Shown here: positions 1 to 20,996 of the stretch, in pieces | Layout: every line of letters starts with the position of its first letter | Numbering within the stretch: position 1 is the first letter of the stretch | Source of the DNA: an uncultured Eubacteriales bacterium | GTDB lineage: Bacteria; Bacillota; Clostridia; Christensenellales; QALW01 | Assembly (NCBI GenBank): GCA_900552055.1 | Contig: URYI01000022.1 | Span: forward strand, 1-21,000 | Length of the DNA: 21,000 nucleotides | Direction of reading: 5' to 3' | Program-made: the position numbers and the translations under genes | Notes under the pieces: generated by a model | What the model was told of the DNA's origin: nothing | The model's input: the letters and a program-made list of their open reading frames with translations, nothing else | Databases searched by the model: none

Positions 1-21
1 GGCAGGCGCAAAGCGCCTGCC
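1..21. repeat. Perfect GC-rich hairpin at window edge
   Basis: A perfect 9-bp stem with a three-base AAA loop (GGCAGGCGC / GCGCCTGCC) starts at the first base. The following 30 bases are also very GC-rich, then the sequence becomes A/T-rich. The arms share GGCAGGC and GCCTGCCCA with the first hairpin of the cloverleaf element at 4810-4887, so this may be the cut-off end of a related element. It could equally be part of a terminator for a gene outside the window. Confidence 0.5.
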
Positions 22-130
22 CAAGAGCCGCCCCCCGCGGCCGTATTTGCCTTTTGCCCAAAACAGGCGCGTTCCTCTGAGCAAAAACGCATCATATCCA
101 GATTGTACTGTCTAAATAATGCAGGCAAAC

Positions 131-913: not shown

Positions 914-2692
914 TTATACTGCCTTGCGCTGGGCCAGATTAAGCTCGTAATAAATGCCTTTGCGCGCCATAAGCTCATCATGGCTGCCCTGCTCGGCTAT
1001 CCCCTGATTAGCTATGCACATAATATTATCCGCACTGCGTATAGTAGAAAGCCTGTGCGCAATAACAAAGGATGTGCGCCCCTTGAGCAGTTCGGCCAGC
1101 GCCTTTTGTATAAGTACTTCGGTGCGGGTATCAATAGCGCTGGTTGCCTCGTCCAGAATTATAATCTTGGGATCAGCAAGGATTATGCGGGCAAAGGAAA
1201 GCAGCTGGCGTTCCCCCGCCGAAAGGCCCGCTCCCTGCTCCTCAACGCGGGTATAATATCCGTTAGGCAGGCGTTCAATAAAGATATTGGCATAAACGCT
1301 GCGCGCCGCCGCTATGCATTCCTCGTCTGTTGCGTCCGGCCGCCCATATCGGATATTGTCCATAATATTCCCCGAAAACACAAAGCTTTCCTGCATCATA
1401 GCCATAACCTGGGCCCTTAAAGATTTAACTGTAACGTCCCTGATATCATAGCCGTCTATAGTCACCCTTCCCTCGGTCGGGTCATAAAAGCGTGAAAGCA
1501 GATTTACTATCGTAGTCTTACCGGCGCCCGTCGGCCCCACCAGAGCTATAGTCTGGCCCGGCTCGGCAGTAAATGAAACGTCTTTCAGGATAAGGCGGTC
1601 ATCGTCATATCCAAAGGATACATGCTCAAACGCAACCCTGCCCTGCACAGCAGGTAATTCTATGGCTCCAGGCGCGTCCTCTATATCCGGCTCAGAATCC
1701 AAAGTCTCAAATATCTTTTCCACGTTGCTCATATTGGCCACAACCTGGCTGTATATAAAGGATATTGAATTTATCGGCTGCCAGAACCGCGCTATATAGG
1801 AGGTAAATGCCGCCAAATCACCCGGAGTGAGCATATCCCCCGTTACCATCTGATATCCTATAAGATAGAGCAGTATGGTGCTCACTACATAAGTAAAATC
1901 TACCGCCGGGCCCAGTGTGGCCGAAGTGCGGATCATCTTTACATCCGCCTCTGTAAGCTCTTTATTAAGCCGTTCCAATTCATCAACATTGTGCTTTTCC
2001 CTGTTAAACGCCTGTGTGGTCTTAATACCCAGTATATTTTCAAAGGTATATGCGTTGCGGTTGGAAACCTTATTTCTGACATTTACCCGCAGCTTTTCCA
2101 GCCTGCGCCTGAAAAAGACTATAAATATCATAAGGGGTATGACTGTCGCAACACTTACCAGCGTCAGCTTAACATTAAGGCAGAACAGCACCACCAATAT
2201 GCCCACGAGAGTTATAACATCGCACAGTGCCTGAACTATGCCGCTGCTCAAGAGCCAGGCCAGGCCGTCTATATAACTGGTAACGCGCACCAATATCTTT
2301 CCTGCCGGCCTGTCATCGTAGAATTTAAAGGTAAGGCGCTGAAGATGGGTAAAAAGTGAGCGCCGTATATCAAAAATAATCTTTTGCCCCAGCCAGGAAA
2401 CCGCAACATCTCTGAATGCATTGATTATAGGCTGAAGGATGAATACCGATGCCATAGCGCATATGAGTATGACGCCGAGAGGCCAGTTAGTCGCCGGCAT
2501 AAGCACGTCGTTGAGCAGATATTTATTAATCAACGGACCGCCCAGGGATACAGCAACGCTGCACAGCATTATGCCGAAGCACGCTATAAAGCGCTTTTTA
2601 TAGGGCTTGCAGAATTGCAGCAGGCGCTTAAGCAGCTGGGAATCAATTCCCTCGCGCGAGCTTTCGTCTTCAAAATACCGGTTGCGCGCCAT
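914..2692 (-). CDS. ABC exporter, subunit with the catalytic Walker B Glu
   Basis: A 592-aa half-transporter: an N-terminal six-helix type IV exporter domain (about residues 30-320) and a C-terminal ATPase domain. Walker A is GPTGAGKT (about 389), Walker B is IIILDEATSAID with the catalytic Glu (about 512), and the switch His is in VIAHRLST. The signature is LSAGE instead of LSGGQ (about 491). In heterodimeric exporters such as BmrCD, LmrCD and TM287/288, a subunit like this supplies the active Walker B while its altered signature faces the partner's weak site. The ATG follows the partner's TAA with no gap, and AAAGGAGG lies inside the end of the partner gene. Substrate unknown; multidrug, peptide or lipid export is possible. 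Confidence 0.92.
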   Translation of the reverse strand: MARNRYFEDESSREGIDSQLLKRLLQFCKPYKKRFIACFGIMLCSVAVSLGGPLINKYLLNDVLMPATNWPLGVILICAMASVFILQPIINAFRDVAVSWLGQKIIFDIRRSLFTHLQRLTFKFYDDRPAGKILVRVTSYIDGLAWLLSSGIVQALCDVITLVGILVVLFCLNVKLTLVSVATVIPLMIFIVFFRRRLEKLRVNVRNKVSNRNAYTFENILGIKTTQAFNREKHNVDELERLNKELTEADVKMIRTSATLGPAVDFTYVVSTILLYLIGYQMVTGDMLTPGDLAAFTSYIARFWQPINSISFIYSQVVANMSNVEKIFETLDSEPDIEDAPGAIELPAVQGRVAFEHVSFGYDDDRLILKDVSFTAEPGQTIALVGPTGAGKTTIVNLLSRFYDPTEGRVTIDGYDIRDVTVKSLRAQVMAMMQESFVFSGNIMDNIRYGRPDATDEECIAAARSVYANIFIERLPNGYYTRVEEQGAGLSAGERQLLSFARIILADPKIIILDEATSAIDTRTEVLIQKALAELLKGRTSFVIAHRLSTIRSADNIMCIANQGIAEQGSHDELMARKGIYYELNLAQRKAV

Positions 2693-4456
2693 TTATACCG
2701 CCTCCTTTATTTCACCGAACTGGGTCTTATAAACCTCATAATAGCGGCCGCCCAGAGCTAAAAGCTCGTCATGCGTACCCCGTTCAACTATCCTGCCGTT
2801 TTCAAGATAGATTATCTCATCGCATTCTTTAACCGAGGCTATACGGTGAGCCACAGTTATAACCGTCTTATCCTTATGCTCGGCATTAAGCGCGGCAATA
2901 AGGCGCTGCTCGGTTTCCATATCCAGAGCGCTGGAAGCGTCGTCCAGCACAAGCACGGGCGCATCCTTAAGCAGCGCGCGCGCAATGGACAGTCTCTGCT
3001 TCTGACCTCCCGAAAGGCCCATGCCCCTCTCGCCTATTACCGTTTCAAAGCCGTCGGGCAGTTCCTTAATAAATTCATACGCCTGCGCCACCTCAGCGGC
3101 GTGCACAATCTCCTCCATACTGGCGTCCGGCTTATAAAACGCAATATTTCTGGCTATGGTCTCACTGAACAGGAACACATCCTGCATAACCGGCGAAAAG
3201 CATTTGCGCACCTCGGCCAGATCCAGCAGGCGCATATCAGTATCATTTAAAGTGACGTTGCCGTGAACGGGATCGTAATACCTCATTATCAGATTGCACA
3301 GCATGGTTTTTCCGCTTCCTGTGCGTCCCATTATGCCCAGCCGTTTGCCCGCAGGCAGCGAAATATTTATATCTTCCAATATGGATGCGTTATCCACGCT
3401 TATGCTCGCATGGGTGAGGGTAATATCTTTTAAGGGCAGCTCCAGCGGCACAGGCTCAGGAATGGATTTTATCCTTACGCCCTGCTCTAAAAAGGTAAAC
3501 ACCTTTTCGCCCGAAGTCATGGCCTGCTGATATTGGGTAATCCAGCCTGAAATAAGGTTGAAGAAATTAGTGACATATGCTAAATATCCACCGGTAGCCA
3601 CGAAGTCACCTACAGACATTTCGCCCGTCATAACCAGGACAAAGCCCATAACATTAAGCAGCACATATGGCATGGCGCCCGATATTCCCAAAGGCATAAA
3701 GCGCCTTTTCCAGGTCTCTAAATATTCCTTCTGTGCGTCCAGCGCGTCATCGCACACCGCGTCAAACTTCTGGATTTCCTCCTTCTCCCTTGAAAGGGCA
3801 CGGACAAGACGGATACCCACAATATTCTCCTGCGCACATTTGGAAATATTGGCCGAGCAATCCCTTATGCGCAGAATGGGCGAACGTATATCTTTTCCTG
3901 CGCGCCGGGAAAGCATAATAATAAACGGAGCCATTATATATCCCGCCAGCAGTGACCACGGACTGATCAAAGCCATCATCACACTGCCGAAAATCATAGC
4001 CGTTGTATTTTCAAAGGCCTGAGGGATAGTGCTCACAAAGAAGTTTTTTACCAGTTCGGGGTCGCCGTTGATGATGGTCATTATATTGCCCGAATTCTGG
4101 CTGCGCACAAAGGAGTCTGACTGAGAGAGCAATTTATCCATAAGCTCTTCTCTCATCTTGGCCACGCTCTGCATGCTTACCCGCTCCATCATTATTGAAC
4201 GGATATAATTGACTCCCTGCCTTATAATGCATTGGGCAAGCAAAGCCACGGCAATAAAGAGCATAAGGCTCCCGTCTGCCAGCGTAAACGGCCCCAATTC
4301 CAGCGGGACGCTTACCAGCAGATTATCGAATATGTACTTTTGCAGATAGGGTGAGATCATGGCTACGGCTGTCACCGCAAGCCCCAGAACAATGTAAAGT
4401 ATAATTTTGCCCCGATACGGTTTAAAATACCGGTATAGCTGTTTAAGGGTTTTCAT
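2693..4456 (-). CDS. ABC exporter, subunit with degenerate catalytic site
   Basis: A 587-aa half-transporter with six membrane helices (about residues 15-310) and an ATPase domain. Walker A is GRTGSGKT (about 380) and the signature is a canonical LSGGQ (about 482). Walker B reads LVLDDASSALD, with Asp in place of the catalytic Glu (about 502), the mark of the weak-site subunit of a heterodimer. The switch His is kept (VAHRIAS). I chose the ATG at 4456 (MKTLKQLYRYFKPY) because AGAGGGG sits just upstream; an in-frame start at 4534 would add 26 basic residues and has no comparable site. First gene of the minus-strand operon, abutting its partner. Confidence 0.9.
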   Translation of the reverse strand: MKTLKQLYRYFKPYRGKIILYIVLGLAVTAVAMISPYLQKYIFDNLLVSVPLELGPFTLADGSLMLFIAVALLAQCIIRQGVNYIRSIMMERVSMQSVAKMREELMDKLLSQSDSFVRSQNSGNIMTIINGDPELVKNFFVSTIPQAFENTTAMIFGSVMMALISPWSLLAGYIMAPFIIMLSRRAGKDIRSPILRIRDCSANISKCAQENIVGIRLVRALSREKEEIQKFDAVCDDALDAQKEYLETWKRRFMPLGISGAMPYVLLNVMGFVLVMTGEMSVGDFVATGGYLAYVTNFFNLISGWITQYQQAMTSGEKVFTFLEQGVRIKSIPEPVPLELPLKDITLTHASISVDNASILEDINISLPAGKRLGIMGRTGSGKTMLCNLIMRYYDPVHGNVTLNDTDMRLLDLAEVRKCFSPVMQDVFLFSETIARNIAFYKPDASMEEIVHAAEVAQAYEFIKELPDGFETVIGERGMGLSGGQKQRLSIARALLKDAPVLVLDDASSALDMETEQRLIAALNAEHKDKTVITVAHRIASVKECDEIIYLENGRIVERGTHDELLALGGRYYEVYKTQFGEIKEAV

Positions 4457-4586
4457 ACGGATACCCCTCTTTCCCCGTTTTCGGCAAACAGAGTTTTTTT
4501 CGCGCCGTCTGACATCAAAATCAGCTTGGTTCACAGTCTTTTAGGACAGTCTATTCCCTGTGCGGCCGCGTTTTTTTAGATACTGC

Positions 4587-4592
4587 ATTATA
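4587..4592 (-). promoter_or_regulatory. Possible -10 box for the ABC exporter operon
   Basis: On the minus strand a perfect TATAAT lies about 130 bases upstream of the ATG at 4456. The -35 region at 17-base spacing (TTTCTT) is a poor match. The leader would be long, about 120 bases, and carries two GACTGT copies; no attenuator was recognised. Confidence 0.4.
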
Positions 4593-4809
4593 TCAAATAT
4601 TTTTACTAAAAGAAATAGAAAGAGCATACCGAATTTAACCGGATATCACCCTAAATCCAAATTTTAAGCCTTAACAAATAATTGGCTTGAAATCTTTAAA
4701 GATTGGTATGTTTTTTGCGGAATTCCTGCCCAACTTGCCTTCGGGATAAAAATACCAGATAAATTGCAGTGAGTATAAAAGCACAAATGGGCGCAATGCC
4801 AAAGGCGGG

Positions 4810-4887
4810 GCGGCGTTTAGGCAGGCTTTGGCCTGCCCAGGCCGGGCCAACGGCCCGGCCGGCGGCCCTTCGGGCCGCAAACGCCGC
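4810..4887. repeat. Perfect cloverleaf-forming GC-rich element, 78 bases
   Basis: A 9-bp outer stem (GCGGCGTTT at 4810-4818, AAACGCCGC at 4879-4887) encloses three perfect hairpins: 4820-4837 (7-bp stem, loop TTTG), 4840-4860 (9-bp stem, loop AAC) and 4862-4878 (7-bp stem, loop TTC). Only 14 of the 78 bases are unpaired, and there is no mismatch. It is far richer in GC than its surroundings. It is not a tRNA: no anticodon loop, no TTCGA arm, three- to four-base loops. It may be an intergenic mobile repeat, a structured RNA, or a folding or protein-binding site; the function is unknown to me. Confidence 0.85.
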
Positions 4888-4964
4888 GGCAGTTTCTTGC
4901 GGGCTGTGTTTTCAAACCCTTTCAGCGTTCAAATATCGTTCTATTCAGGCACTGAACAAAATAT

Positions 4965-4993
4965 TTGCGCAATACCGAAAAATAGCATATAAT
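4965..4993 (+). promoter_or_regulatory. Sigma-A promoter for the 5034-6263 pair
   Basis: TTGCGC (4965-4970) and a perfect TATAAT (4988-4993) are spaced by 17 bases. Transcription would start near 5000, about 34 bases before the ATG at 5034. Confidence 0.7.
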
Positions 4994-5033
4994 AACTGAA
5001 AAATGCTTTATAAAAATGAGTTAGGATATAATT

Positions 5034-5402
5034 ATGAGTATAACTTTGCAGATATTGCTTCTGGCGGTTGGTTTTATACTTATTGCCGCGGTTATTTATA
5101 CGCTGTATTCATTTATAATAGGAATGGGGCCTGTTTCTTTTGCAAAAAAATTCTGGCATGTAACCCTGCTGCCTGAGGGCATTCTGGCGCTGCTGTTTTT
5201 TCTTTTGAATTTAAGAGGCATAACTGCGACCGGGCATTTTGCCTGGTGGGGGATAAGAATAGTTCTGGTGGTGATACAGCTTTTTCTGCTGCCTAAGCTT
5301 ATGGCGCCTGAGGGAAAGAAGAAAATATTGGGGGTGCTGTGCGGCCTGCTGCCTCTGCTTTTTCAGATTTTAGATAATTTAGCTGTCCAGCTGATTCTAT
5401 AG
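5034..5402 (+). CDS. Small integral membrane protein, 122 aa
   Basis: Not recognised as a named family. Four hydrophobic segments are visible: about residues 5-30, 44-60, 70-90 and 99-119. Short basic loops (AKKFWH, PEGKKK) lie between them, so this is a four-helix membrane protein. The start has a modest AGGA about ten bases upstream. The stop TAG overlaps the ribosome binding site of the next gene (TAGGAG), so the two are probably co-transcribed and translationally coupled. I infer an accessory role to the transporter that follows. Confidence 0.75.
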   Translation: MSITLQILLLAVGFILIAAVIYTLYSFIIGMGPVSFAKKFWHVTLLPEGILALLFFLLNLRGITATGHFAWWGIRIVLVVIQLFLLPKLMAPEGKKKILGVLCGLLPLLFQILDNLAVQLIL

Positions 5403-5414
5403 GAGTATATATTT

Positions 5415-6263
5415 ATGTGGGAAACCGTATGGGAAATTTTGGAACACGCTTTGCTTGACTCGCTTCAAACTCTGCCTTTTTTGTTTTTAGCCTATCTGCT
5501 TATAGAGTTTTTAGAGCACCATGCTTCGGGAAAAATGGAAAAAGCATTGGCCGGTTCGGGCAAATTAGGAGTCGTGATAGGGGCGCTGCTGGGCTGCGTG
5601 CCTCAATGCGGTTTTTCAGCCATTGCCGCTAATCTTTATGCGGGACGGATAATAACGCTGGGCACTCTTATGGCTGTATTTTTATCCACCTCGGACGAGA
5701 TGATAATAATCATGCTGTCTGAACCGGGGCATGTCGGGGAAATGCTGCTGCTTATCGGCATAAAGGTTGTTATAGCGGTTTTAGCGGGGCTGGTTATAGA
5801 TTTTATTGTTAAAAGAAACAATGGTTCGGGAGAAGAAAATATTAAAAAGCTGTGCTCAGGCTGCGGCTGTGAGCATGGGATTTTCCTTTCCGCACTCAAG
5901 CATACCATTAGTATTTTTGCTATAGTGCTTGCTGCAAATATTGTGCTGGGCGGGCTTATTCATTTAGTAGGAGAAGAAAACCTGGGCAAGTTTATGCTTT
6001 CGGGCAGCTTTTTTCAGCCTATTCTGGCAGCGGTTATAGGGCTTATACCTAATTGCGCCGCCTCAGTGCTTATAACTGAACTTTATATAAGCGGAGCCCT
6101 TACTCTCAGCTCGGCGGTGGCCGGCCTGTGCGCGGGCGCCGGTGTAGGACTTATAGTGCTTTTCAGAGCCAACAGGAATTTAAAGGATTGCGTAAGGATT
6201 ATCCTCCTGCTGTTCGGAATTTCGGCTGCGGCAGGTTTGCTGCTCAGTCTTTTCGGGCTTTAG
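5415..6263 (+). CDS. ArsP_2-type 10-TM metal/metalloid exporter
   Basis: A 282-aa polytopic membrane protein resembling the ArsP_2 family (putative heavy-metal exporter, often annotated as arsenic efflux or putative manganese transporter). Two internally related halves carry matching motifs: GCVPQCGFSA near residue 60 and GLIPNCAASV near residue 208, the paired cysteine/proline helices of this family. The central hydrophilic loop has a Cys/His cluster (C147, C150, C152, H154) that could bind metal. AGGAG lies ten bases before the ATG. The substrate cannot be told from sequence; arsenical or manganese efflux are the family suggestions. Confidence 0.8.
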   Translation: MWETVWEILEHALLDSLQTLPFLFLAYLLIEFLEHHASGKMEKALAGSGKLGVVIGALLGCVPQCGFSAIAANLYAGRIITLGTLMAVFLSTSDEMIIIMLSEPGHVGEMLLLIGIKVVIAVLAGLVIDFIVKRNNGSGEENIKKLCSGCGCEHGIFLSALKHTISIFAIVLAANIVLGGLIHLVGEENLGKFMLSGSFFQPILAAVIGLIPNCAASVLITELYISGALTLSSAVAGLCAGAGVGLIVLFRANRNLKDCVRIILLLFGISAAAGLLLSLFGL

Positions 6264-9851: not shown

Positions 9852-10208
9852 TGTCCAATATTAGCATGCGGCGGATGATGAAGTTTTTAAGTGCTGAATT
9901 TGCGTATGGGGCCGCTTTTGCTCCATAATACGCCCGGCGCATGGCATCTAATATCTTGTGGGGAGGCAAAATCACGTTTTTGACTTTGAGATCTCAGAAC
10001 CGCTTAAACTTGACTATTTTTAAGGCGGGCGGGGGACGCGGGAACTGAAACGTCTTAAGGAAATATAAAAAACAGGCAGATTTACATGACTTAGGCGTGT
10101 TTTGCCGTGTACGCTAACGCTGAAAATTTTTTTACATAAAAACATGATTTTTTTGCAATACAATTTATTTTTTCTTCACTATATAGATGAAGGGTGGTGA
10201 GAGTGACG
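9852..10208. other. Gene-free region before the sigma factor gene
   Basis: No supportable gene on either strand. A minus-strand open frame (9975-9751) runs through the terminator and repeat and has no ribosome binding site. The stretch may hold decayed transposon sequence. No convincing promoter was found for the sigma gene: TACAAT at 10159-10164 lacks a well-spaced -35, and TTGCAA at 10153-10158 lacks a well-spaced -10. Confidence 0.5.
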
Positions 10209-11813
10209 GTGAAAGCTGGCGAAAAAGATAGCCTGATATATGCTGTTATACAGGATTATTCGGAAAAGATTTTTTACTTTTGCTTAAAAAAGTCGGGAAA
10301 TGTTTATGAAGCGGAGGATTTGGCTTCGGATATTACGCTTAATATTATCGCTTCGCTTGATAAAGGCATAATTCCCGAAAAGCTTTCTGCCTGGATATGG
10401 CGAATCGCGCGCAATCGCTATAGCGTATGGGCTGATAAAAAGCATAAGCAGGCTGTTGCGGAGGAGAGGAAGGATATAAGCGATTTTGAGATTAAAGACA
10501 ATGCTTATAATCCTGAAGAAGAGCTTGTAAATAGTGAAAACCTGTCTCTGCTTCGCAGGGAACTGGCGATGGCCTCATCGGATTACCGAAATATTCTTGT
10601 AGCGTATTATTTTCAAGGTGAAAAAATCAGCGATATAGCCCGCTCTCTCAATATCCCAGCAGGTACGGTTATGTCAAAATTGTACCGTGCGCGAAAAATA
10701 TTGAAAGAAGGTATGGAAATGGCAAGAGAATTTGGAACAAGAAGCTATAAGCCTGAGAGCATATCTTTTTGCGTTTCAGGCAATCAGCCGTCAGGGCTTC
10801 CGTGGTCGGCCATCAAACGCAAAATTCCTGTAAATATTCTGTGTCAGGCGCATAATAATCCAAGCACCCTGCAGGACCTATCTCTAGAACTGGGCATTGC
10901 CGCTCCTTATATGGAGGAAGAAGCGGAGCTGCTCGTTAAAGCTGAGCTTCTTAAGAAAGTTGAAAATAATAAATATTTAACTAATTTTTTTATCGTACCT
11001 GTGGAATGCCAGAACAGGCTTAATGAAGTTATTTGTACTTTTGCCGAGCAGCATGCCGCCGCAATCTGGCAGCTTGCCGAGCCGGCCTTGAAGAAAGCGG
11101 ACGAGCTGGGAGCAACATTTGGCAATTACAGTGTAAATGATGTGCAGATTTATTTCGCCCTATACCTGGAGCAGCTAATGGAAGCATCTTCTTTTGCGAG
11201 CAATATTTTTTTTCATTTCAAGCGGAGCAGTGGAGGAGACTGGGGCATAATCGGATTTGAAGAAGGGGCTGTATGCCGTTTGCCCTCCTCGTTTTTCAAT
11301 AATAACGGAAACGGATGGATAGGTACAAGCTGGAAAGGATATCAGGCGCAAACACAGGATGCGGTATTTTCAAAAAGAAGATATAAAAAGGATGTCCCCG
11401 ATTATTATCTGAACGCAACTCTTAATGCAATCGTAAAGGATGTGCCGCTGACACAATTTTCTGAAGCAGAAAAAGAAAATCTGCAAAAACTGACGAATGA
11501 AGGTTTCTGCGCTGTGCAATGCAGCGGCAGGCCGTATGTAAATGCGATTGTATTTAAAGACAAAATGGAAGTTCAGCTTAAGGAATATTTGTGCTCCCTG
11601 GCTGGATATAAGTCTTTATCCAAGGATATGCGAAATTGTATTGATACAACAAAAGAGATTGTAGCGGAGTATTCCAATAAATATCTTAAAGAGGATTTTG
11701 AATTTTATGCCGCAATGTCGATCGTAGAGCTAAGATCTGTTTTTGCGCGGCTGTGGAAGGACAGCGGGATGTATAGCGGGGACAGCGCCCAATTCTGCGC
11801 GTTTTTCTGTTAA
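10209..11813 (+). CDS. ECF-type sigma factor with long C-terminal extension
   Basis: About 534 aa, roughly three times a normal ECF sigma factor. Sigma region 2 spans about residues 15-85 (AEDLASDITLNIIASL, WIWRIARNRYSVWADKK) and region 4 about 118-167 (SDYRNILVAYYF, ISDIARSLNIPAGTVMSKLYRARKIL), a standard promoter-recognition helix-turn-helix. After it, about residues 204-264 look like a winged helix (STLQDLSLELGI, ELLVKAELLKKVENNKYL), followed by some 270 residues I cannot assign, soluble and without membrane helices. No anti-sigma gene is adjacent. Start: AGGGTGGTGA (10191-10200) serves best as ribosome binding site for GTG 10209; GTG 10203 or 10194 are alternatives. It likely redirects RNA polymerase under control of the fused domain (inference). 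Confidence 0.85.
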   Translation: MKAGEKDSLIYAVIQDYSEKIFYFCLKKSGNVYEAEDLASDITLNIIASLDKGIIPEKLSAWIWRIARNRYSVWADKKHKQAVAEERKDISDFEIKDNAYNPEEELVNSENLSLLRRELAMASSDYRNILVAYYFQGEKISDIARSLNIPAGTVMSKLYRARKILKEGMEMAREFGTRSYKPESISFCVSGNQPSGLPWSAIKRKIPVNILCQAHNNPSTLQDLSLELGIAAPYMEEEAELLVKAELLKKVENNKYLTNFFIVPVECQNRLNEVICTFAEQHAAAIWQLAEPALKKADELGATFGNYSVNDVQIYFALYLEQLMEASSFASNIFFHFKRSSGGDWGIIGFEEGAVCRLPSSFFNNNGNGWIGTSWKGYQAQTQDAVFSKRRYKKDVPDYYLNATLNAIVKDVPLTQFSEAEKENLQKLTNEGFCAVQCSGRPYVNAIVFKDKMEVQLKEYLCSLAGYKSLSKDMRNCIDTTKEIVAEYSNKYLKEDFEFYAAMSIVELRSVFARLWKDSGMYSGDSAQFCAFFC

Positions 11814-12919: not shown

Positions 12920-13118
12920 AAATAATAGGAAATCAGGTAAGTAAAACGGAGAGCATTAATACAAAACATCAGGTGTGACCCCGGTAATGTCGGGACTTAT
13001 AATGGGCAGTGCGATCAGCCTTGCTTTGTAATCAGAGTGTCTGGGAATACAGTTCCTATTCGTTTGCCGGGTCAACCGAACCTTTGCGCCTTATGACGGT
13101 AGGTTCGGCTTTTTTATT
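12920..13118 (+). ncRNA. Structured leader RNA ending in a terminator
   Basis: Between a strong promoter and an intrinsic terminator lies about 195 bases without a good open frame. A long-range stem pairs 12972-12984 (GGTGTGACCCCGG) with 13067-13077 (CCGGGTCAACC): 11 pairs with two single-base bulges. Inside it is a 6-bp hairpin (TGGGAA-TACAG-TTCCTA, 13042-13058). The last two bases of the long-range stem are also the first two of the terminator stem, so the two structures partly exclude each other, as in riboswitches and attenuators. I cannot name the family; it may also be a free-standing small RNA. Confidence 0.55.
13076..13118 (+). terminator. Leader terminator upstream of the TetR gene
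   Basis: An 8-bp stem (CCGAACCT at 13076-13083, AGGTTCGG at 13101-13108), a 17-base loop and CTTTTTTATT. It lies before the TetR coding region with no visible promoter after it, so TetR expression would need read-through. Confidence 0.8.
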
Positions 13119-13171
13119 AAGAAGGGGCGACAGCAGCCCTGCTGTTCAATCTTGGCTGGAGGTGGAGCTTA

Positions 13172-13716: not shown

Positions 13717-13767
13717 ACAAAACGGGCCGAGTGTAAAAAGCTTTTACACTCGGCCCGTTTTGTCTAT
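13717..13767 (+). terminator. 22-bp-stem terminator after the TetR gene
   Basis: A perfect 22-bp inverted repeat (13717-13738 with 13742-13763) with a three-base loop AGC. The GC core CGGGCCGAGTG is flanked by AAAA and TTTT, so it could work in both directions. It separates the TetR unit from the next operon. Confidence 0.85.
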
Positions 13768-20866: not shown

Positions 20867-20938
20867 AACTGGAAAAAGTAAGAAGGAGCCTAAACTGTAT
20901 TTTTTATAGAGGCTTGATATATGCTGCGGAATGGAAAA

Positions 20939-20996
20939 GGGCGGGGCTCCCGCCCAAGCACAGAACAGCCCGTCATTTTGACGGGCTGTTCTGTGC
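20939..20996. terminator. Two adjacent perfect hairpins, probable operon terminator
   Basis: A 7-bp hairpin (GGGCGGG-GCT-CCCGCCC, 20939-20955) is followed two bases later by a perfect 18-bp hairpin with a TTT loop (20958-20975 with 20979-20996). No T tract follows on the plus strand before the window ends (AATA), so it may be a bidirectional terminator for convergent genes, or a repeat element. About 70 gene-free bases separate it from the last stop codon. Confidence 0.6.

Follow-up and report, generated by a model that had tools for sequence, protein, structure and literature searches.

The palindromes dispersed through bacterial genomes have mostly been described as single or paired hairpins of conserved sequence. 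ERIC, RUP, Correia and Rickettsia palindromic elements are MITE-like, non-autonomous and dispersed, with inverted ends, and RUP, Correia and Rickettsia palindromic elements are conserved in sequence. A REPIN is a pair of inverted REPs, not three hairpins held in a closing stem. A palindrome with internal hairpins is found in the terminal repeats of parvoviruses (AAV), which form the end of a linear viral genome, occur as flip and flop, and involve the Rep nuclease. Furthermore, according to the available text of PMC3733652, REPs of the GTAG type often lie near RAYT genes. As for template switching, the available part of PMC8604942 describes how it homogenises arms and inverts spacers in yeast, and that of PMC8794818 proposes that it creates and keeps RNA hairpins. 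Could a branched palindrome, conserved in shape rather than in letters, have a place beside these systems?

A perfect cloverleaf between divergent genes

In the window, that is, the whole stretch of 21,000 nucleotides analysed, positions 4810-4887 are arranged in the order GCGGCGTTT-A-hairpin 1-CA-hairpin 2-G-hairpin 3-AAACGCCGC (Table 1), with Watson-Crick pairs throughout the stems. An earlier sequence-only reading had described a cloverleaf with a closing stem of 9 bp, hairpins of 7, 9 and 7 bp and 14 unpaired bases, and both the sequence and the computed fold confirm it. The minimum free energy is -63.8 kcal/mol on the plus strand (z -6.5) and -65.3 kcal/mol on the minus strand (z -7.3), and 0 of 200 shuffles folded as well on either strand. 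The same reading had placed the element as a GC-rich block in A/T-rich DNA, between divergent operons, and had called it clearly not a tRNA; all of this holds. Its GC content is 78%, compared with 45.6% for the window and 26-41% for the neighbouring 100-base stretches. The intergenic region is divergent: the minus strand carries the ABC transporter pair, the plus strand the 122-aa ORF and ArsP_2. The element ends 146 nt upstream of the 122-aa ORF. ARAGORN and Rfam RF00005 give only tRNA-Gly (8694) and tRNA-Lys (8772) in the window.

Judged from the sequences of its relatives, the 78-base element is the core of a longer palindrome. An imperfect outer stem reaches from about 4785 to 4908 around it. 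The element ends in GCGGCG/CGCCGC, and its flanks are GGCGGG and GGCAGT. Terminal inverted repeats, a trait of MITEs, are present as the 9-bp closing stem in the window and as arms of ~42 bp in the translated sequence of three other records of the locus, P0241-P0243.

Table 1. Coordinates, in the window, of the cloverleaf element, its parts and its neighbours
Feature	Positions	Strand	Details
Probable end of a second, diverged copy	1..60	+	cut by the window edge
ABC transporter pair	914-4534	-	neighbour
ABC transporter subunit	2693..4534	-	intergenic flank on its side, 4674-4809, common to P0241-P0243
Left outer arm X	4777..4809	.	33 nt; inverted copy across the core in P0241-P0243 (translated sequence)
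Perfect cloverleaf core	4810..4887	.	78 nt; cloverleaf fold on either strand
Closing stem, left arm	4810..4818	.	GCGGCGTTT; 9 bp; partner is 4879-4887
Hairpin 1	4820..4837	.	GGCAGGC TTTG GCCTGCC; 7 bp, loop TTTG (4)
Hairpin 2	4840..4860	.	GGCCGGGCC AAC GGCCCGGCC; 9 bp, loop AAC (3)
Hairpin 3	4862..4878	.	GCGGCCC TTC GGGCCGC; 7 bp, loop TTC (3)
Closing stem, right arm	4879..4887	.	AAACGCCGC
Right outer arm	4888..4913	.	perhaps a diverged counterpart of X; GGC, TTGCG and TGTG still pair leftward
122-aa ORF (no Pfam match) and ArsP_2 permease	5034..6263	+	neighbours

Several other features of the window were recorded. At 4703-4718 on the plus strand, TTGGTATGTTTTTTGC points toward the element and the ArsP_2 genes and may resemble a sigma-54 -24/-12 promoter. 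Positions 10194-11813 encode a sigma-70-like protein (regions 2 and 4) whose C-terminal extension, ~370 residues long, matches nothing in Pfam at E 0.001. The stretch 12940-13120, upstream of a TetR gene, looks like a leader, with a terminator-like hairpin at its end; as a leader, it was rejected, as it has no Rfam match and its fold, at a z of only -0.45, does not surpass that of shuffles. At 20938-20996, just after an ORF that we presume to be cytidylate-kinase-like, lies a pair of adjacent GC-rich hairpins, of which the second is perfect over 18 bp, and a 22-bp perfect hairpin lies at 13717-13763; both places score weakly with the cloverleaf models (~16 bits).

How readily does such exactness arise by chance? 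We scanned for exact elements, defined as a closing stem enclosing three perfect hairpins. Across the window and 104 loci (1.21 Mb), the scan returned 2 elements, that of the window and one at L012:7160-7252, compared with 0 exact three-hairpin cloverleafs in 1.21 Mb of simulated sequence with the same dinucleotides. Random sequence at 78% GC (2 Mb) held 0 with hairpins of at least 6 bp and a closing stem of at least 7, and 9 at a looser cut-off (hairpins 5, closing stem 6). When elements of at least two hairpins were allowed, the real sequences gave 4 and the three simulated sets none. At the loosest settings, the 80 ArsP_2 loci yielded three elements, two in L012 and one in L029; this last three-hairpin stretch is A/T-rich and unlike the rest, and was set aside.

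The locus in other records and a second copy in the window

Among the genomes searched via ArsP_2, MurG and FtsH, none was found to belong to the species or genus of the window. The locus was, however, recovered from predicted proteins. With the translations of four of the open frames of the element as the query, 455 candidates were drawn from 5.8 billion predicted proteins, and 3 of them matched at E 10 or better: P0241, P0242 and P0243, which represent 1, 9 and 18 member sequences. In translation, all three agree with the window in the flank on the ABC side (up to 4674-4809) and carry an inverted copy of 4777-4809 across the core, so that the core lies between arms of ~42 bp made up of X and the closing stem. 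The window's own right arm, compared by eye, is diverged and unlike that of these records. Past the outer arm, the flank on the side of the 122-aa ORF (window 4888-5033) is unrelated to P0241-P0243, while the other side is nearly identical; this one-sided mismatch looks as if the palindrome were a breakpoint.

The records also differ in the direction of the core. In translation, the flanks of P0242 and P0243 agree on both sides of the core apart from four substitutions, yet the core orientations are opposite: the core of P0242 corresponds to the plus-strand frame of the window element and that of P0243 to the minus-strand frame, with one substitution each. P0241 and P0243 have the core orientation of the window, and the core of P0242 is inverted between the same flanks. 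The core of the locus thus seems to occur in two orientations among strains, as read from predicted proteins. Both orientations between inverted repeats is a trait of invertons, which P0242 and P0243 display in translated sequence only.

A further copy may begin the window itself. Bases 1-60 hold a hairpin, GGCAGGCGC/GCGCCTGCC, followed by AAGAGCCGCCCC, and align to the minus strand of hairpin 1, the closing stem and the X arm. The first 34 bases score 35 against the minus strand of hairpin 1 plus the closing stem, a score reached by 0 of 2000 mononucleotide shuffles (maximum 24), compared with 25 for the next-best place in the window outside the query. Under a lenient scheme, the alignment continues through the outer arm to base 60. 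The letters of its hairpin differ, and the pairing is again perfect. Of the dispersed copies typical of MITEs, the 21 kb of the window hold one probable partial second copy.

The searches run found no sequence-similar copies beyond this locus and window 1-60. At E 1e-4, model R1, made for the window element, found no match in any of 391 genomes; at E 1, it found none in 15. The plasmid search returned 9 records at E 0.3 to 4, all partial and unconvincing; the phage search returned no match, and the viral contigs searched gave nothing convincing. Two viral matches to a pattern with a spacer of 52 were rejected, being by eye not cloverleafs. An exact pattern of the closing stem plus hairpin 1 gave nothing convincing in 84,980 species genomes, and the intergenic region, used as a DNA query against 295 genomes, had short matches in 12; the 5 inspected were A/T-rich and taken as chance.

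Cloverleafs of the same shape in Acutalibacter

The other element of the shape scan, L012:7160-7252, comes from Candidatus Acutalibacter stercorigallinarum and has a closing stem of 14 and hairpins of 8, 9 and 10. Model R2, built on this element, was run over 36 genomes and matched in 2: G974, from which the element comes, with 11 matches, and G990, which contains L016, with 4. An exact scan of 1.29 Mb of G974 (hairpins of at least 5 bp, closing stem of at least 6) returned 35 elements, namely 18 with three hairpins, 15 with two and 2 with four, compared with 0 three-hairpin and 5-6 two-hairpin elements in three simulated sets. Four other genomes, covered over 1.13 Mb (0.36 Mb of G990, 0.40 of G988, 0.17 of G007 and 0.20 of G979; three of the four at 60-64% GC), held no three-hairpin element, and the cloverleaf shape was missing from most of the Clostridia sampled. 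Model R3, made from 31 R2 matches, some of which are opposite strands of a single locus, gave 66 matches at 42 distinct loci in G974, 15 matches in G990 (0.36 Mb), none in the three other genomes (0.77 Mb), and matches in 4 of the 80 ArsP_2 loci (L012, L014, L045 and L047). Exact G974 elements with at least three hairpins lie mostly outside predicted ORFs (16 of 20, against 16% of the sequence), and the 42 R3 loci comprise 20 in co-directional gaps, 7 convergent, 2 divergent, 5 one-sided and 8 inside predicted ORFs. A two-hairpin family of its own, whose conserved ends are CAAGAACC...GGTTCTTG, is also dispersed in G974 (L135:3813-3871, L148:7045-7104, L164:3141-3201 and others).

Is the pairing of these elements kept on DNA or on RNA? 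To follow covariation, we used one row per R3 locus, keeping 42 from the 66 matches. Their 1554 paired cells comprise 1340 Watson-Crick, 48 G-U, 58 A-C and 108 other combinations, the Watson-Crick percentage being inflated because R3 itself rewards pairing. At a median identity of 52%, 40 of 41 pairs show at least two Watson-Crick types, and when partners were slid by 1, 2 and 3 columns, the Watson-Crick cells fell to 510, 456 and 430. An RNA keeps a G-U pair, whereas the complementary A-C is not kept. In the 20 loci in co-directional gaps, oriented by transcription, we counted 27 G-U and 26 A-C, a small sample that describes the Acutalibacter copies rather than the window's and takes its genes from a simple ORF rule. 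The lack of a G-U excess over A-C indicates that both strands keep the pairing to about the same degree, as would be expected of DNA. Consequently, in the Acutalibacter copies, pairing seems to be maintained on DNA, not on RNA.

The elements also come and go at orthologous sites. The 93-nt element of L012 lies in a gap between genes that we take to be spoIIR-like and addB-like, and 5 of 5 relatives with both genes have no multi-hairpin element there. A second site was compared in the L013-L049 group, 11 loci recognised as close relatives by a best block 80-95% identical to L013. At ~9980-10240 of each locus, the site is either empty or filled with different hairpin-bearing inserts, upstream of the start codon of a presumably NUDIX-like gene. 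The distance from a shared motif to this next start codon is 10-12 nt in six loci (L015, L016, L018, L022, L041 and L049) and 84-241 nt in five (L013, L014, L021, L045 and L047). The five long gaps contain perfect hairpins, not the same from species to species: four of the gaps have five to eight, and L021 has one. The larger clusters are less regular than a single cloverleaf. The site offers a natural set for gain, loss and flipping.

Does the window element belong with the Acutalibacter elements? With R2 and R3 run without filters, it ranked first in the window (E 2.7e-5 and 6.5e-5), ahead of the next different place at E 0.16 and 0.73, although models of this type reward any perfect cloverleaf; with default filters, it was not listed at E 0.1. 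Its architecture is that of the class, exact three-hairpin elements of 79-100 nt, with its own 78 nt at the short edge, and its closing stem of 9 and stems of 7, 9 and 7 fall within the G974 ranges (closing 8-17, stems 5-13). On the other hand, R1 run over 32 of 80 G974 stretches gave a best E of 0.019 and nothing convincing, the CCCTC/GAGGG closing stem of many Acutalibacter copies is absent from the window element, and its divergent setting is shared by 2 of the 42 loci, compared with 27 that are co-directional or convergent. The proposed link would therefore rest on shape, without demonstrable sequence homology.

Maintenance of the palindrome and comparison with known systems

We propose, at a probability of roughly 0.6, that the window element is the core of a dispersed, non-coding, non-autonomous miniature palindrome that is kept perfect and flipped by template switching. 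The conserved feature would be the shape, three perfect hairpins in a closing stem, rather than the letters. When a replication fork reaches the hairpins, the polymerase may copy one arm from the other; the arms would thereby become perfect, both would change jointly, and the segment between the outer arms might invert, while copies would come and go at intergenic sites. Template switching would account for the exact stems, the change of letters under preserved pairing, the inverted core of P0242 and the absence of strand bias. We infer the class membership of the window element, the template-switching cause and the mobility of the window copy. Among the roles that the sequence-only reading had offered, a recombination-like DNA structure agrees with the core inversion of P0242, as read in translation. 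The dispersed mobile repeat has gained from the partial copy at 1-60, the dispersal in Acutalibacter and the presence or absence at orthologous sites, evidence that is only indirect for the window copy itself. Its structured RNA is disfavoured by the G-U and A-C counts of the Acutalibacter copies and by the lack of an Rfam family, and its statement that no known family matches stands, as far as sequence goes, for Rfam and the literature searched.

Spread to new sites is left unexplained by template switching and would be explained by a transposase acting on folded DNA. It is conceivable, with a clearly smaller chance than we give to template switching, that a MITE- or REPIN-like element is moved by a dedicated transposase, of the HUH/RAYT type or another, to which the folded single strand is the signal; the perfection would then reflect selection by the enzyme for copies that can fold. 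Dispersal, inverted arms, presence or absence at orthologous sites and a shape kept better than the sequence would all suit such an enzyme; yet the 8 window proteins scanned include neither a transposase nor a RAYT, the window element carries no GTAG or CGTC end tag, no target duplication was seen, and 1.29 Mb of G974 gave 7 HUH-motif candidates and no Y1 transposase in a weak test with a hand-made motif. More speculative, and in our view doubtful, is the idea of shape-only mobile elements in several lineages of Clostridia, in which a DNA cloverleaf would be copied via a folded single-strand or hairpin intermediate, the letters drifting while the pairing stays exact and the core flips and flops as in parvovirus ends.

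A structured RNA, serving as a leader or a transcription insulator whose fold blocks polymerase or RNase, or as a small RNA, is likewise unlikely. The fold is very stable on both strands, many of the Acutalibacter copies are no more than 100 nt from a gene end, and the 122-aa ORF starts 146 nt beyond the window copy, as such a role would have it. However, sense G-U pairs do not exceed A-C in Acutalibacter, core orientation varies in the translated records, and terminator-like sites nearby are near chance (2 against 0.8 +/- 0.9 expected). Rfam 15 gives no match over 4810-4887, also at E up to 1, and on 11 related sources it gives only an S10 leader and a weak tRNA, neither on an element. An intrinsic terminator was rejected, no T-tract following directly behind the hairpins. 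An invertible regulatory switch, whose core a recombinase would flip to alter ABC or ArsP_2 expression, could be read from the two core orientations between the same flanks (translated) and from the location between divergent genes; it is most improbable, as a sigma-70 promoter-like site is absent from 4450-5100 and a recombinase from the 8 window proteins scanned. That the element is an assembly artefact or a product of chance is scarcely credible, as simulated sequence gave 0 as exact and the locus recurs in P0241-P0243 with their 1, 9 and 18 member sequences.

The template switching proposed for the window element is the same process as that of the quasi-palindromes in PMC8604942 and PMC8794818, as far as their available text goes. 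The spacer inversions in PMC8604942 span 2-5 bp in yeast coding DNA, compared with ~60 bases that flip at the window locus, and its available part does not present the process as the means by which a dispersed bacterial element persists. Our literature search, run on an incomplete library, turned up no dispersed DNA repeat of cloverleaf form described from Clostridia. If our reading is true, a branched, shape-conserving element would offer a direct test of template switching against a shape-reading enzyme, and would explain some GC-rich non-coding blocks in Clostridia.

The nearest kinds are REP and REPIN repeats, ERIC-type elements and the families of Cozzuto et al., none of which was found to be both branched and conserved in shape over sequence. 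RUP, Correia and Rickettsia elements, being conserved in sequence, differ from a shape kept at ~52% median identity in the Acutalibacter copies. With the terminal repeats of AAV, the window element has internal hairpins and, as it seems, flip and flop in common, which we regard as an analogy only.

In the available text of PMC3733652, REPs and GTAG/CGTC-tagged repeats are, like the elements here, short dispersed intergenic palindromes with tiny loops and alternative complementary stem residues. They consist of a hairpin of 20-40 bp and a GTAG or CGTC tag, whereas the elements here are branched, 78-100 nt long and untagged, and the frequent G-T pairs described there for GTAG repeats contrast with sense G-U pairs that show no excess over A-C. 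Membership among the GTAG or CGTC REPs was therefore rejected for an element of 78 nt with three hairpins and no end tag. The REPINs of PMC3116915 are, in its available part, miniature mobile palindromes of bacteria, as proposed here. The families of Cozzuto et al. 2008 (PMC2267715) are similarly structured, dispersed and bacterial, with predictions on both strands; no three-hairpin family was found in the available part of that paper, and the word 'cloverleaf' is absent from its main text. Some of these families have two adjacent stem-loops, and ERIC is described there as a single long stem-loop, whereas the window element is branched.
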